NCBI GenBank assembly: GCA_944385965.1
Contig: CALWZG010000022.1
Span: forward strand, 1 to 64,000
Source: an uncultured Anaerotruncus sp.
GTDB lineage: Bacteria > Bacillota > Clostridia > Oscillospirales > Ruminococcaceae
Direction: 5' to 3'
Length of the DNA: 64,000 bases
Position 1 is the stretch's first letter. Each line of letters opens with the position of its first letter. Shown here piece by piece: positions 54,345 through 64,000 of this stretch. A model generated the notes under the pieces. That model was not told the DNA's origin, ran no database searches, and saw nothing but the letters and a program-made list of their open reading frames with translations. Both the position numbers and the translations under genes were made by a program.

Positions 54345-55022
54345 TTGGATGTGATTAAGCAGCGGATGACCGAGGAGCTGACCGGCGTGAAAAAGCTGGC
54401 GCTGGGCCCTTTGGTTGTACCGGAGTCGGTTGTGGTAACCTGGGGAATTATGATTTTGCTGGTGGGACTGTCCATCCTGCTGACCAGGAGGCTGCGTGAG
54501 GAGAAGCCCGGAAAGGCTCAGCTGGTTTTGGAATGGTTTGTAAGCTTTATCAACGGGTTTGCTCAGGAATCTTTAGGGGAACACGGCAAGTTGTTCGCTC
54601 CTTATCTTGGAACCATAGGGCTTTATATCGCCTGCGCCAACCTGAGCGGTTTGGTGGGGGTGACACCGCCCACCAAGGATTTGAATGTGACCGCCGCACT
54701 GTCGCTGATGAGTATGTTTCTGATTTATGGTTCCAGTTTTTATTTTAAGGGACTAAAGGGCGGACTTCATAAATTTGTGGAGCCAATGCCGCTGCTGCTT
54801 CCTATCAATCTTATGGAGGTGGCTATCCGGCCTCTTTCCCTGTGTATGCGGCTGTTTGGAAATGTATTGGGGTCCTTTGTGATTATGGAGCTGATTAAAA
54901 TTCTGGCCCCGCTGATTATCCCCATTCCTTTCAGCCTGTATTTTGATGTATTCGACGGAATGATTCAAACCATTGTATTTGTGTTTCTCACCACCCTGTT
55001 TGTGGCGGAAACCATTGAATAA
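54345..55022 (+). CDS. atpB: ATP synthase F0 subunit a
   Basis: Membrane stator subunit forming the two ion half-channels against the c-ring (225 aa). The essential Arg sits in [13 protein letters not shown]; other landmarks are [23 protein letters not shown] and the C-terminal [15 protein letters not shown]. The start is TTG 54345 with GAGGTG 7 nt upstream; GTG 54351 is the only nearby in-frame alternative. It opens the atpBEFHAGDC operon, with no atpI in front. Confidence 0.95.
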
Positions 55023-55045
55023 AAATTTTCGAGGAGGAAATCGTT

Positions 55046-55261
55046 ATGTTAGTTGCAATTGGAGCTGCTGTCGCTGTATTCACTGGAGTAGGAGCTGGTA
55101 TTGGAATCGGAATTGCCACAGGAAAGGCCGCGGAATCCATCGCCCGTCAGCCGGAAGCCGCCGGACAAATCAACAAGGCGCTGCTGCTGGGATGCGCTCT
55201 GGCGGAGGCAACCGCTATCTATGGATTCGTAGTCAGCTTGGCGCTGATGTTCATGCAGTAA
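55046..55261 (+). CDS. atpE: ATP synthase F0 subunit c
   Basis: Rotor-ring proteolipid (71 aa, two helices joined by the polar loop ARQPEAAG). The ion-binding carboxylate is Glu54. At the positions equivalent to Ilyobacter Gln32 and Ser66, which bind Na+, this protein has Ile and Ala ([18 protein letters not shown]), so H+ is the expected coupling ion. GAGGAGG precedes ATG 55046. Confidence 0.95.
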
Positions 55262-55274
55262 GGGGGCGTAGGCC

Positions 55275-55763
55275 ATGCTGGAACTGGATGTCACCAGTAT
55301 CCTGTGGAATATTGCAAACCTGCTGGTGCTTTTCCTTCTGCTGAAACATTTTTTGTTCAAGCCTGTCAACGCCATTCTGGATAAAAGAGCCCAGGCGATT
55401 CAGTCGGAGCGGGAGGAAGCCCAGGCCCAGCGGATTGAGGCCCAGGAGCTGAAAGAGTCCTATGACCAACGGCTGGCCCAGGCCAGTCAGGAAGCCGCCC
55501 GGCTGGTGGCTCAGGCCAAGAGCCAGGGCCAGCGGGAATACGAGGCGATTTTGGAGAAGGCCCAGAGAGACGCTCAGCGGGTGCAGCAGCAGGCGCAGGC
55601 TGAGCTGGAGGCCCAACGGCAGAAAGCCCTGGCGGATACCCGCCAGCAGGTGGCCAGTCTGGCTCTGATGGCAGCCGCGAAGGTGGCGCAGCGTCGGATG
55701 GACGAAACAGAAGACCAAGCTTTGGTGGAGGAGTTTCTGCGGGAGGCGGGTGAAGCCTCATGA
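55275..55763 (+). CDS. atpF: ATP synthase F0 subunit b
   Basis: Peripheral-stalk subunit (162 aa): N-terminal membrane helix (about 8-28, SILWNIANLLVLFLLLKHFLF) then a long charged Gln/Glu/Ala-rich coiled coil that reaches F1. The stop overlaps the atpH start (ATGA). Confidence 0.93.
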   Translation: MLELDVTSILWNIANLLVLFLLLKHFLFKPVNAILDKRAQAIQSEREEAQAQRIEAQELKESYDQRLAQASQEAARLVAQAKSQGQREYEAILEKAQRDAQRVQQQAQAELEAQRQKALADTRQQVASLALMAAAKVAQRRMDETEDQALVEEFLREAGEAS

Positions 55764-56275
55764 GTGAAATTGCCTGCCGCTATGCCCAAGCTTTATGGGG
55801 GCTGACTCAGGAGGAGAAAGCCTTGGAAAAAACAGCCCATCTGATGCGGGGAGAGCCGGATTTATGGGACGCCTTGTGTGGTCCATCGGTTCGGCCGGAG
55901 GAAAAGGCGGCTGTTGTGGGCCGCCTGCCTTTTTTGCAAGGGGAACCGGTGCTGCGTTCCTTTTATCAATTGCTGGCCCGGAAGGGCCGGATGGCTCTGC
56001 TGCCGGAAATTGTGAGGGCTTATGAGGATTTGGCGCTGAGGGAGCGGGGAGGATGCCGCTGCCTGCTGCGCTGTGCCAAAATTCCTTCCGCTCAGACTCA
56101 GGAAGCATTGAAAAAAGCCCTCTGCAAGCTGCACCATAAACAAGAAATTTTACTGGAAGTTGAAGAAAATCCCAGTCTTTTGGGAGGCTTTACCCTGGAG
56201 CTGGAAGGTGTCACCTACGACCAAAGCCTGAAAGGGCGGCTGTCCAGGCTGGCCCGTTATTTACAGATGAGGTGA
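55760..56275 (+). CDS. atpH: ATP synthase F1 subunit delta
   Basis: Connects the peripheral stalk to the top of F1 (171 aa). Family features are [20 protein letters not shown] at the N-terminus, REKGR-like [19 protein letters not shown] in the middle and the C-terminal [21 protein letters not shown]. Divergent, as delta usually is, but position in the operon is decisive. Confidence 0.92.
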
Positions 56276-56283
56276 GAGGCAAC

Positions 56284-57804
56284 ATGAATATGAGACCTGA
56301 CGAGGTGGTTTCCATTCTCCAGGAGGAAATCGCCGGTTATGAGAATAAAATCCGCCGGGAGGAAACCGGCTCGGTCATCTCTCTGGGAGATGGCATCGCC
56401 ACCATTTATGGGTTGGACAAGGCTTTTTACGGTGAGTTGGTGGAGTTCGAGAATGGGACCCCTGGCATGGTACTGGATTTGTCCAGAGACAGTGTAGGCT
56501 GTGTGCTGCTTGGCTCTGACGAAGGGCTTCAGGAAGGTTCTCAGGTGCGCCGCACAGGCCGCCAGGCGGATATTCCGGTGGGGGACGCCCTCATCGGGCG
56601 GGTGGTGGACGCCTTGGGGGCCCCCATTGATGGATTGGGACCTATTCCTTCTACCGAAACCCGGCCCATCGAGCGGGAAGCTTCCGGCGTTGTAAGCCGA
56701 GAGCCGGTCACAGTTCCCTTGCAGACCGGAATTCTGGCCATAGACGCCATGGTTCCCATTGGCAGAGGCCAGAGAGAGCTGATTATTGGAGACCGGCAAA
56801 CCGGAAAAACCGCCATCGCTGTGGATACCATCCTGAACCAGAAGGGGCAAGATGTGATTTGCATTTATGTGGCCATTGGACAGAAGGCTTCCAGTGTGGC
56901 CCGTGTGCGGGATACCCTGCAAAAGCATGGGGCTATGGATTACAGCATTATCCTGTCGGTCACCGCCAGCGACCCGGCTCCCTTGCAGTATATCGCGCCT
57001 TACGCGGGAGCGGCTATGGGAGAATACTTTATGGGGAAGGGAAAGGATGTACTGATTGTCTATGATGACCTTTCCAAGCACGCGGTAGCTTACCGTACCC
57101 TGTCGCTGCTGCTCCATCGTTCCCCTGGCCGTGAGGCTTATCCGGGAGACGTTTTCTATCTCCACTCCCGTCTGTTGGAGCGGGCCTGCCGCTTGACCAA
57201 GGAATACGGCGGTGGTTCCATGACTGCTCTGCCCATTATCGAGACACAAGCGGGAGATGTGTCCGCTTATATCCCAACCAATGTGATTTCCATTACAGAT
57301 GGCCAGATTTATCTGGAGACAGACCTGTTTTTCGCTGGACAGCGTCCAGCGGTGAACGTGGGCCTGTCAGTGTCCCGTGTGGGCGGTGCCGCCCAGACCA
57401 GAGCGATTAAAAAAACCGCTGGTACCCTGCGTATCGATCTGGCAAGGTTCCGGGAGCTGGAGGTGTTCACTCAGTTCAGCTCTGATTTGGACCAAGCCAC
57501 CCGCCAGACCCTGGAACATGGCAAACGCCTATTGGAACTGCTCAAGCAGCCTCTTTACCAGCCAATGCCGGTGAGCCGGCAGGCCATTTTGCTGTACATT
57601 TCCACCAGCGGCCTGCTGGATAATGTTCCCTTGGAACAGGTACGGAAATTCGCTTTGGATTTTGCGGACCGGATGGCGATTGAGCATCCTGAGGTTATAG
57701 AGGAAATTGAAAGCAGCAAGAACCTTTCCGGGGCCTGTGTGCAGGTGATTCGGGACACTTTCGCGGTTTATGAGAAGCAGGTGAGCGCCTCATGGCAAGT
57801 ATAA
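56284..57804 (+). CDS. atpA: ATP synthase F1 subunit alpha
   Basis: Non-catalytic nucleotide-binding subunit of F1 (506 aa). P-loop GDRQTGKTA, the DELSEED-adjacent and signature region [17 protein letters not shown], and [12 protein letters not shown] are present. ATG 56284 is preceded by GAGGTGAGAGG. The 3' end overlaps atpG by 13 bp. Confidence 0.97.
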
Positions 57805-58682
57805 AGGAGATTCGGGACCACATCAAAAGTGTGGAGCAAACGCTGAAAATTACCAACGCCATGTATTTGATTTCCTCCTCCAGTATGCGGAAGGCGAAAA
57901 AACAGCTGGCGGATGTGGAACCTTACTTTGAGAAAATTTCCACCACCATTTCGGATATTCTCCACCGCTCCCCTGAAATCACCCATCTGTATTTTGACAA
58001 GCGTCCGGAAAAAAGCAAACGGATGGCGGCGTACCTTGTAATCACCGGGGATAAGGGGCTGGCTGGGGCTTATAACCACAATGTCATTAAGCTGGCGGAG
58101 GAGCAGCTCAGGCTGCACCCTCAGGAAGAGCCTTCCCTGTTTTTGGTAGGACAGGTGGGCCGGGCTCACTTTGCCAGAAAGCAGTCGGAACATGTGATTG
58201 GTTCCTTTATGTATACAGCCCAAAATCCTACCATGTATCGGGCCAGGGAAATCAGCGATACGCTGTTGGATTTGTTTCGGCGGGGATTGATGGATGAACT
58301 GTATATGATTTATACAGATATGGTTTCCCCTATGAGGATGGAACCTAAAATTGTGAAGCTTCTGCCGTTGGACCGGGATAATTTCCCTTGGCAGAAACCG
58401 GAAGGGGAACATTATCAGGAGATAGTGACCTATGTGCCCTCTCCTGACGCGGTTCTTTCCCAGTTGGTCCCCGGTTACCTGAAGGGAATGATTTTTGGAG
58501 GATTGGTAGAGTCCTATTGCAGTGAGCAGAACTCTCGTATGAGTGCTATGGACTCCGCCACCAAAAACGCGAAGCAGATGCTTAAAAACCTGTCTCTGGC
58601 TTACAATCAGGCCCGGCAGTCGGCCATTACCCAGGAGCTGACCGAAATTGTAGCGGGCGCCCAGGGCGGGGGACAGAGATGA
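57792..58682 (+). CDS. atpG: ATP synthase F1 subunit gamma
   Basis: Central rotor shaft (296 aa). N-terminal coiled-coil helix [20 protein letters not shown], the domain core [18 protein letters not shown] and the C-terminal helix [19 protein letters not shown] with [16 protein letters not shown] are typical; the terminal helix enters the alpha3beta3 ring. Confidence 0.95.
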
Positions 58683-58710
58683 ATGAAACCACCTGGAAAG
58701 GCGTGATTGA

Positions 58711-60512
<1,802 letters not shown>

Positions 60513-62736: not shown

Positions 62737-63168
62737 ATGGCTGGTATTTATCCTTACGGAAAGTTTCGGTTCCGGGTGGAATGTGATGGTTTATCAGAAT
62801 ATTTTTCAGAAGTAACTGGCTTTGACGCCAATGTGGACGTGTACGAATATCGGGAGGGCAGTCAAAAGACCACCCCGCTGAAGGTGTCCGGCCTGCGCAA
62901 GTATGGCAACGTGACCCTGAAACGAGCTGTCTCTGAGGCCAACGCCACCGAGCTGTGGGATTGGTGGACCATCGCCGCCGACCAGGAGCCGGAGCGCAAG
63001 AGCCTGGCCATCACCCTGATGGACAATGACGGAAATGATGTGGCTACCTGGAACATTGAGGAGGCATGGCCTGTCAAGTATACCGCCCCTGATTTTAACG
63101 CCACCGCTTCGGAGGCTGCTGTTGAAACCATTGAACTGGCACACGAAGGCATGACCCGCGTGATGTAA
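62737..63168 (+). CDS. Contractile injection system tube protein (gp19-like)
   Basis: Inner-tube subunit (143 aa) of the T4-gp19-like family found in phage-tail-like injection systems. Landmarks: GIYPYGKFRFRVECDGLSEYFSEVTGFDANVDVYEYREG, of which FRFRVECDGL and FSEVTGF are the most diagnostic, GNVTLKRAV, WDWW and the C-terminal VETIELAHEGMTRV. It follows the sheath gene by 40 bp with AAGGAAG before the ATG. Sheath followed by tube is the usual order. Confidence 0.93.
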   Translation: MAGIYPYGKFRFRVECDGLSEYFSEVTGFDANVDVYEYREGSQKTTPLKVSGLRKYGNVTLKRAVSEANATELWDWWTIAADQEPERKSLAITLMDNDGNDVATWNIEEAWPVKYTAPDFNATASEAAVETIELAHEGMTRVM

Positions 63169-63207
63169 TCAAAATTTCAACAACAAAATATAAATGTAAT
63201 TCTTTGC

Positions 63208-63285
63208 CGCTGCTGTATCATAATCTGATTGTAATTTTCAGGATGCCTGGAAAGAATTCTGATTATGCTGCAGCAGCGCTTTTTT
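63208..63285 (+). terminator. Internal terminator-like stem-loop in the injection operon
   Basis: CGCTGCTG (63208-63215) plus ATAATC (63220-63225) pair with GATTAT (63261-63266) plus CAGCAGCG (63271-63278), followed by CTTTTTT. It lies between the tube gene and the next gene, which begins 20 bp later. Partial termination here would keep sheath and tube mRNA in excess over the assembly genes, matching their high copy number in the particle; that role is inferred. Confidence 0.65.
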
Positions 63286-63304: not shown

Positions 63305-63676
63305 ATGGCCTTTGAAACAGAATTTCACTTTGTGCTGCCCCGTGGTTATGTGGATCAGGATGGAACGGTCCACCGGGAGGGCGTGATGCGTCTGGCCAAC
63401 GCGGCGGATGAGATTCTGCCTCTGCGGGACCCCAAGGTACAGCAGAACCCAGGCTATCTGACCATCATTCTGCTGACCCGGGTGATTACCAAGCTGGGTA
63501 CCCTGCCGATGATTACCACCAAAACCATTGAGGGATTGTTCACCTTGGATTTGGCGTATTTGCAGGACTTCTATGAGCGGATTAACTCCATGGAAATGCC
63601 CAAATACCGGTGTATCTGTCCTCACTGCGGGCAGGAGGTGGATGTCCCGGTAAATTTTATGGAAGCCATCGGATAA
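63305..63676 (+). CDS. Injection-system assembly protein with zinc-ribbon, zero-frame product
   Basis: A 123-aa protein of a small family found after tube genes in phage-tail-like systems. An N-terminal beta-rich part (MAFETEFHFVLPRGYVDQDG, EGVMRLANAADEILPLRDP) is followed by helices (IILLTRVITKLGTLP...YLQDFYERINSME) and one zinc-knuckle half (CICPHCGQEV). ATG 63305 has AAGGAG about 11 nt upstream. Position after the tube gene suggests a tail-assembly chaperone role. Near its end are a Shine-Dalgarno-like element and a slippery heptamer, so some ribosomes may continue into the -1 frame to give a longer fusion (see 63658-63867). Confidence 0.75.
   Translation: MAFETEFHFVLPRGYVDQDGTVHREGVMRLANAADEILPLRDPKVQQNPGYLTIILLTRVITKLGTLPMITTKTIEGLFTLDLAYLQDFYERINSMEMPKYRCICPHCGQEVDVPVNFMEAIG
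63633..63658 (+). promoter_or_regulatory. Putative programmed -1 frameshift signal
   Basis: Slippery heptamer A AAT TTT at 63652-63658 in the zero frame (codons GTA AAT TTT), fitting X XXY YYZ. AGGAGGTG (63633-63640), a perfect anti-16S match, lies 11-13 nt upstream, the spacing at which internal Shine-Dalgarno elements stimulate -1 slippage in E. coli dnaX. No start codon in the -1 frame lies at a normal distance from this element. No clear downstream pseudoknot was seen. Confidence 0.7.
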
Positions 63677-63867
63677 GGCTGTACGCTCAGGACAAGCTCT
63701 ACGAGGAAAGCGCCTTTCTGGCCTATTACACCCACTGGAGCAGGGAGGAAATTCTCCAGATGTCCCATCAGGACCGGATTAAGTGGTGCGGCGAAATTTC
63801 TAAAATCAACAGCAAGATTAACGCCGCCTCCGGACACGAGGAGAGAAAAAACGTTTTTTCAATTTAA
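63658..63867 (+). CDS. -1 frame extension, DUF6760-like, without its own start codon
   Basis: Sixty-nine codons in the -1 frame relative to the preceding gene: YGSHRIRLYAQDKLYEESAF, then LAYYTHWSREEILQMSHQDR and IKWCGEISKINSKINAA. The helical segment from about LYEESAFLAYYTHWS to KINSKI resembles the small DUF6760-type proteins of contractile injection loci. The frame has no ATG; its only starts are a GTG at 63610 deep inside the upstream gene, ATA 63673 and CTG 63679, none with a placed ribosome-binding site. Frameshifting at 63652-63658 would give a 187-aa fusion. A sequencing indel or a rare start codon are the alternatives. Confidence 0.65.
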   Translation, partial: YGSHRIRLYAQDKLYEESAFLAYYTHWSREEILQMSHQDRIKWCGEISKINSKINAASGHEERKNVFSI

Positions 63868-63897: not shown

Positions 63898-64000
63898 ATG
63901 GCGGCGGGAGATTTTGTAAATGGGGCGGTTTTTCGAGTCAGCTTTTTTGGCCTGGAACTGGGTTTTTCCAGGGTCAGCGGATTGGGCGGCTCAGTGGAAT
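63898..64000 (+). CDS. Second tube-like (gp19 family) protein, 3' end outside the window
   Basis: ATG 63898, behind AGGGAAGAGG, starts MAAGDFVNGAVFRVSFFGLE, then LGFSRVSGLGGSVE up to the window edge. The FRVSF-GLELGFSRVSGLGG pattern matches the N-terminus of the tube/gp19 family (compare FRFRVECDGL...FSEVTGF in the first tube gene). Paralogous tube proteins next to the baseplate are normal in extracellular contractile injection systems. Confidence 0.75.
   Translation, partial: MAAGDFVNGAVFRVSFFGLELGFSRVSGLGGSVE

Follow-up and report, generated by a model that had tools for sequence, protein, structure and literature searches.

The question raised by this locus is how its DUF6760 segment comes to be translated. 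The window, that is, the whole stretch of DNA analyzed, comprises 64,000 nucleotides of a genome contig from an uncultured Anaerotruncus sp., and close to its 3' end a zinc-ribbon assembly gene carries a DUF6760-like segment in its -1 frame, as the initial annotation had proposed and as the ORF coordinates and the match to PF20546 (E 7e-16) confirmed. Programmed -1 ribosomal frameshifting on the heptamer A AAT TTT was the best explanation for this arrangement, and from sequence comparison we consider it highly likely.

Overlap and putative slip site in the window

The zinc-ribbon ORF begins with the ATG at 63305 and its final codons are GTA AAT TTT ATG GAA GCC ATC GGA TAA, in which A AAT TTT stands in the correct phase within the overlap, exactly as had been described (Table 1). 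The -1 frame was open across 63610-63867. A fusion of 118 zero-frame codons and 69 codons in -1 has the predicted length of 187 aa, beside the 123-aa protein. The junction, however, had been given as VKF-YGSH; VNF-YGSH would be expected if both tRNAs slipped together, since AAT and TTT would by then already have been decoded, and the VKF form would need a different order of events. The tryptic junction peptide expected for the fusion of the window is CICPHCGQEVDVPVNFYGSHR.

Table 1. Features around the chaperone gene of the window
Feature	Position	Strand	Evidence or remark
Tail tube protein gene, T4 gp19-like	62737..63168	+	PF06841 E 3.1e-42; immediately 5' of chaperone gene
Long hairpin then TTTTTT, terminator- or attenuator-like (putative function)	63206..63282	+	Between tube and chaperone genes
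Zinc-ribbon tail assembly chaperone gene, zero frame, 123 aa	63305..63676	+	ORF; PHROG_508 tail assembly chaperone 2.6e-6
AGGAGGTG, Shine-Dalgarno-like, possible stimulator	63633..63640	+	Sequence; anti-SD duplex about -15 kcal/mol
Slippery heptamer A AAT TTT	63652..63658	+	In phase with zinc-ribbon frame
DUF6760 segment, -1 frame after the putative shift, 69 codons and stop	63658..63867	+	PF20546 E 7e-16
Short hairpin AGCC/GGCT, weak possible stimulator	63664..63680	+	Local fold, -4.8 kcal/mol; 5 nt 3' of heptamer
Zero-frame stop TAA, end of 123-aa form	63674..63676	+	Sequence
Second gp19-like tube gene, start only in window	63898..64000	+	L017:3898-4317, PF06841 9.5e-9

Relatives of the locus

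Relatives were collected by means of whole-genome searches, in which the chaperone half was found in 15 of 149 near genomes and DUF6760 in 13 of 398 phylum genomes and 16 of 391 class genomes (the window's own genome being included in each count). Genome contigs (the best 80 of 593), viral contigs (7 and 2 added), and plasmids (34 records matched, 13 of them retrieved) provided further relatives. The chaperone half and DUF6760 were close together in 139 loci, a number that includes duplicates and near-identical loci, such as L003 and L038; the copies L001, L017, L028, and L143 were omitted from the heptamer-frequency analysis onward. Clustering at 85% identity of the 103 loci with an A- or T-type heptamer gave 48 representatives, which were therefore chosen for the heptamer and are mutually related. 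Another 24 loci, added later, lie outside the 139; several repeat earlier genomes, and L171 is L016 again.

Conservation of the -1 phase and of the heptamer

Conservation of the heptamer and of the -1 phase across diverged genomes had been put forward as a test of frameshifting, and both were found to be conserved. DUF6760 lay in the -1 frame in 136 of the 139 loci, the three not scored as such (L030, L130, and L145) having chaperone frames that appear broken or mis-delimited. AAATTTT, TTTTTTG, or TTTTTTA occurred in phase within the overlap in 103 loci, GGGGGA or GGGGGG at the corresponding place in 31 more, and the remaining five were other cases (L015, L115, L116, L118, and L145). Among the 24 additional loci, some from genomes seen before, 21 had DUF6760 in -1 (20 with A AAT TTT or T TTT TTR and L170 with GGGGGAA) and three were devoid of DUF6760. 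Strict X XXY YYZ heptamers were found in phase at 65 of 14,703 codons (0.44%) elsewhere in the same genes.

The three wobble bases of the heptamer were the only invariant ones in 40 loci (next best 92.5%, with Met and Trp columns skipped); the rows had been chosen by heptamer, which makes this invariance circular, and we thus relied on the count of Asn-Phe codons, a test free of such selection. Asn-Phe was encoded within the last 15 codons in 95 of the 139 loci, and all 95 used AAT TTT, preceded by A in 94 of them; the exception, L137, has T TTT TTG instead. The joint probability of the codon choices over the 48 representatives was 10^-61.9 given local codon usage, a figure that is conditional on the heptamer, was obtained from relatives that are not independent, and is to be taken as a measure of constraint, not as a P value. 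For the 40 A-type representatives, the heptamer condition excluded no Asn-Phe locus except L137. The chance of the three codons occurring together in loci of high GC content (L009-L011, 60-65% GC) was 0.1-0.4% each.

From the heptamer to 30 nt past the stop, the -1 frame was open in all 48 representatives and the +1 frame in 11, openness of the former up to the DUF6760 domain being partly enforced by the selection of loci. In one relative (L008:1858-1995) about 45 extra -1-frame codons lie between T TTT TTG and DUF6760, and the frame is still open. Zinc-ribbon relatives without detectable DUF6760 (L016, L076, L117, L172, and L173) presented no strict heptamer or GGGGGA within the last 15 codons in any of the five cases, three of which are clean (the L117 match is remote; L016 is incomplete, with 755 bases downstream); L076 reads ATA AGC TTT where related loci read ATA AAT TTT or GTA AAT TTT. 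In a tree of 55 chaperone N-termini with few forks resolved (L030, L145, L130, L126, and near-copies left out), all 28 A-type rows and five of the six T-type rows fell in one branch (SH-aLRT 97), with L137 outside. The sharing of one supported branch by both types indicates that the slippery site was exchanged while the phase was kept.

Possible stimulators around the heptamer

The initial annotation had paired the heptamer with an upstream AGGAGG. This element is indeed present in the window, where AGGAGGTG lies 11 nt before the heptamer and pairs strongly with the anti-Shine-Dalgarno sequence (around -15 kcal/mol), but it was not conserved in the relatives: pairing below -6 kcal/mol was reached in 35-46% of the 48 representatives for 12-mers ending 3-12 nt before the heptamer, with the strongest mean value (-5.29 kcal/mol) at the 12-mer ending 6 nt before it. 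AGGAGG as a conserved second signal was thus rejected for the family.

A downstream hairpin is common in the relatives and weak in the window. Hairpins starting 4-9 nt 3' of the heptamer had a mean energy of -7.97 kcal/mol in the 48 representatives vs. -4.49 kcal/mol at control positions (six per locus; p 2.6e-7, a value that treats loci as independent), and the excess was clear for A-type loci (p 1.2e-6) and weak for T-type loci (p 0.04). No fold excess was found in fifty-base windows starting at least 8 nt after the heptamer. The stem was GCCGG...CCGGC in most A AAT TTT loci, and long stems appeared in some copies of the T TTT TTR set (L006 and L029); the stem of the window is only AGCC/GGCT, and a 69-nt fold displayed another structure that is not unusual (z +0.42). 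Stem cells were paired in 72.0% of cases in the A AAT TTT set, as compared to 16-47% when slid, and 0-41 of 500 shuffles reached the observed covariation values; the corresponding figures for the T TTT TTR set were 81.9%, 32-44%, and 48-227 of 500 on five covariation measures. The covariation picture is mixed and, since the codons that form the stem are also coding, the stem in the relatives is not proven.

Start codons and alternatives to frameshifting

The claim that DUF6760 has no usable start codon stood in part. No ATG, GTG, or TTG was present between heptamer and domain in 68 of the 103 heptamer loci (33 of the 48 representatives), nor between site and domain in 24 of the 31 G-type loci, whereas one was present in 35 heptamer loci. 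The window itself has a GTG in the -1 frame at 63610, within the zinc-ribbon gene and 42 nt 5' of the heptamer, so that the lack of a usable start is something that we infer. The 35 loci with a start codon would suit a situation in which both mechanisms operate, frameshifting giving the fusion and translational coupling some free DUF6760. The start codons, however, occupied no conserved place among the loci and were entirely lacking in the 33 representatives mentioned, and we regard this combination as unlikely.

Coupling as the sole mechanism is less probable still, and we judge it very unlikely. Ribosomes would end at TAA and restart on the overlapping non-standard ATA (ATAA, 63673-63676), thus producing a separate DUF6760 protein. 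ATA was indeed the commonest codon overlapping the zero-frame stop (65 of 103 heptamer loci, 29 of 48 representatives), distant relatives carry ATGA or GTGA overlaps that keep this register, a gene of a Nostoc plasmid is annotated from an ATA, and coupling and frameshifting are interchangeable in some clusters according to excerpts of Antonov et al. (PMC3711429). Nevertheless, the codon at this place was otherwise varied (GTA 12, CTG 9, CTA 6, TTA 4, GTG 3, TTG 2, and ATG 2 of 103), and coupling leaves unexplained the slippery codons (AAT TTT in 95 of 95), the absence of the site where DUF6760 is missing, and the placement of the hairpins. In ten G-type loci (L021, L114, L130, L136, L139-L142, L144, and L147) the GGGGGA run abuts the ATA; this spacing of about one base is too little for a usual ribosome-binding site, and the G run could therefore hardly be one for that codon.

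Homologues with a start of their own, which had been named as a finding that would speak against frameshifting, are indeed known from distant lineages (Haloferax with an ATGA overlap, one Rhizobium with ATG, and two Streptomycetaceae with GTG); we read them as alternative solutions in those lineages, not as evidence against frameshifting in the Clostridia clade. As a separate observation, the ATA at the chaperone stop may reflect a residue preference in the -1 frame, the remnant of an ATGA, or a weak start.

Transcriptional slippage on a homopolymer run, leading to a shifted mRNA, is highly improbable: T6 and G5-6 runs exist in some relatives, but the window and 94 of the 139 loci have A3T4 with no long single-base run, and the pattern follows X XXY YYZ. 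The chance of an assembly error or a broken gene, conceivable as long as the reading rested on a single genome, is negligible; finding the -1 arrangement again in those 136 of 139 loci (duplicates and near-identical loci included) from many assemblies makes an indel error very unlikely.

Proposed decoding

Under programmed frameshifting on A AAT TTT, the majority of ribosomes would follow the zinc-ribbon frame to the stop at 63676 and yield the 123-aa chaperone, the equivalent of gpG or P2 gpE. With their tRNAs on A AAT TTT (63652-63658), a minority would slip one base back and translate the DUF6760 segment as well; their product would be the 187-aa fusion, which corresponds to gpGT or gpE+E'. 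If the parallel with phage lambda holds, coating of the tape measure protein would fall to the chaperone part and recruitment of tube subunits to the DUF6760 tail. Sequence, phase, conservation, and the homology described below are what the comparison shows; that ribosomes slip here, how often they do so, and what each form does, we infer. The locus very probably carries, within a contractile injection system, the frameshift of E/E' (G/GT) chaperones, a mechanism known from phages. The initial annotation was aware of no described case in injection systems, and no description of such a chaperone frameshift was found in the open-licence literature either.

G-type sites and wider distribution

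The 31 G-type loci, which read NNG GGG GAA, GAG, or GGA in the zero frame, came from cyanobacteria, actinobacteria, proteobacteria, Paenibacillus, some Clostridia relatives, and metagenome contigs. GGGGGAA is the motif called 'fivetwo' by the authors of PRFect, who place it across about a thousand phage cases (excerpts of PMC10885494). Frameshifting at the G-type sites is probable, not proven. A broader view, which we hold to be rather more plausible than not, is that of an ancient and nearly general -1 chaperone frameshift in DUF6760-carrying injection systems, with GGGGGAA, GGGGGAG, or GGGGGGA in cyanobacteria, actinobacteria, proteobacteria, and bacilli, A AAT TTT or T TTT TTR in a Clostridia clade, and an ATG or GTG start in Haloferax, one Rhizobium, and some Streptomycetaceae. 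If this is true, the length of these machines would be controlled through a translational ratio, as it is for the tails of phages.

Identity of the two protein halves

The chaperone half matched PHROG_508 (tail assembly chaperone) in all 29 members of alignment A5. Among 352 chains compared, its structural model (pLDDT 84.6) reached Z values of at least 2 only with YqbN and the HK97 chaperone, the VIA-align scores being modest (Z under 8) in both cases: Z 6.7 over 89 residues with rmsd 4.4 for YqbN (3klu), and Z 5.9 over 83 residues with rmsd 3.9 for the HK97 tail assembly chaperone (2ob9). Foldseek gave nothing below E 0.57 for this half, 3klu appearing at E 2.3, and tblastn no match in 50,697 phage records. 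A relative from Pseudanabaena scored 5.6e-5, just short of the cut-off, with PF10109, to which P2 gpE belongs. No match was obtained when the zinc-ribbon profile was compared directly with that of gpE, and gpE is placed in phrog_103, not in phrog_508; upstream homology thus rests on PHROG_508, the one cyanobacterial relative close to PF10109, and the modest fold scores. The match to PHROG_508 and to chaperone folds supports the zinc-ribbon protein as a tail assembly chaperone.

The DUF6760 segment was modeled as three helices (pLDDT 85.8). Its profile aligned with P2 E' in hhalign at E 1.5e-5 (probability 79.6), and the score of 28.6 exceeded both the top value among 200 shuffles (16.9) and that of the highest-scoring unrelated stretch (19.4) in a set of 530 ORF stretches, DUF6760 and E' being two of them. 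Five of the 29 members touched PF06528 (best E 0.03), and phrog_10636 and phrog_1756 were common to P2 E' and DUF6760. Foldseek found nothing below E 3.5 for DUF6760, searches of PDB sequences nothing at E 0.001 (best 0.037 and 0.26), and NCBIfam has no family for the window proteins. DUF6760 is likely a homologue of phage P2 gpE', judging from the profile match. An identity as Cis6 (excerpts of PMC8894136 and PMC12210884) was considered and provisionally set aside upon the match with P2 E'.

Gene neighborhood

The locus is a contractile injection system of the non-T6SS, AAA+ type, with sheath, tube, CIS_tube, spike, gp25, baseplate J, and AAA+ ATPase in one stretch. A sheath gene and the gp19 tube gene lie upstream of the chaperone gene; downstream follow the second gp19-like tube gene, a 1259-aa protein, CIS_tube (PF19266), a spike OB-domain protein, gp25, and baseplate J, with the AAA+ ATPase further on. 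Neither capsid nor terminase was found among the 15 downstream proteins scanned in Pfam. The 1259-aa protein, directly after the second tube gene (L017:4318-8097; genome contig C22, about 64318-68097), is rich in Gln and gave no Pfam match; its position and length suit a tape measure protein. A MORN-repeat protein (L148:879-2390) was observed beside or inside an injection-system cluster. Directly upstream of the cluster in the window is what we take, from ORF translations, to be an F1Fo ATP synthase operon (54345-60512).

Between the tube and chaperone genes, a 94-nt stretch folds at -34.8 kcal/mol. It includes a terminator-like site at 63266-63278, the region having six such sites vs. 4.0 in shuffles, and a hairpin-plus-T element of -12 kcal/mol or better was found 5' of the chaperone gene in 19 of the 48 representatives, a count made with no control set. 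This hairpin could keep expression of the chaperone lower than that of the tube.

Significance and comparison with known systems

Contractile injection systems are studied as relatives of phages and as protein-delivery devices. DUF6760 now gains a likely identity as an E'-type chaperone tail, and frameshifting would explain how gene finders can miss it, as in an unannotated stretch of a Brasilonema plasmid (whose gene table is incomplete). On this reading, assembly would involve short and fused chaperone in a set ratio; silent changes in the heptamer would offer a direct handle on assembly and length control.

In dnaX, an AGGAGG-like upstream element accompanies the heptamer, whereas in the chaperone family the upstream element is not conserved. 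Recoding in a contractile machine is also found in tssM of the Citrobacter rodentium T6SS, although that gene is unrelated and the event there is transcriptional frameshifting (excerpts of PMC4256274). The chaperones of the SEA-PHAGES set use GGGGGAA, as do many G-type relatives, but they belong to phages, not to injection systems (excerpts of PMC10885494). With gpG/gpGT of phage lambda the present locus would share two products from one start, a -1 frameshift, and the roles at tape measure and tube (excerpts of PMC5009743); that case is known from experiment, ours is proposed from the comparison of sequences. The HK97 chaperone shares the fold of the chaperone half, with the modest score given above.

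The analogy with phage G/GT drawn initially holds and appears to reflect homology, the downstream half pointing to P2 E/E' and the upstream half to tail assembly chaperones. As compared with P2 (AF063097), the chaperone here ends in a zinc ribbon, the site in the window is A AAT TTT, a second tube gene and an AAA+ ATPase are present, and the upstream halves have no direct profile match. The two agree in the order of sheath, tube, E/E', and tail length determinator (the last being putative in our locus), and in a -1 shift close to where the first frame ends, which is annotated in the P2 record and very probable here. P2 reads GGT TTT TTG at its site, T TTT TTG being found also in some of the injection-system relatives, and its E' and DUF6760 are probably homologous.
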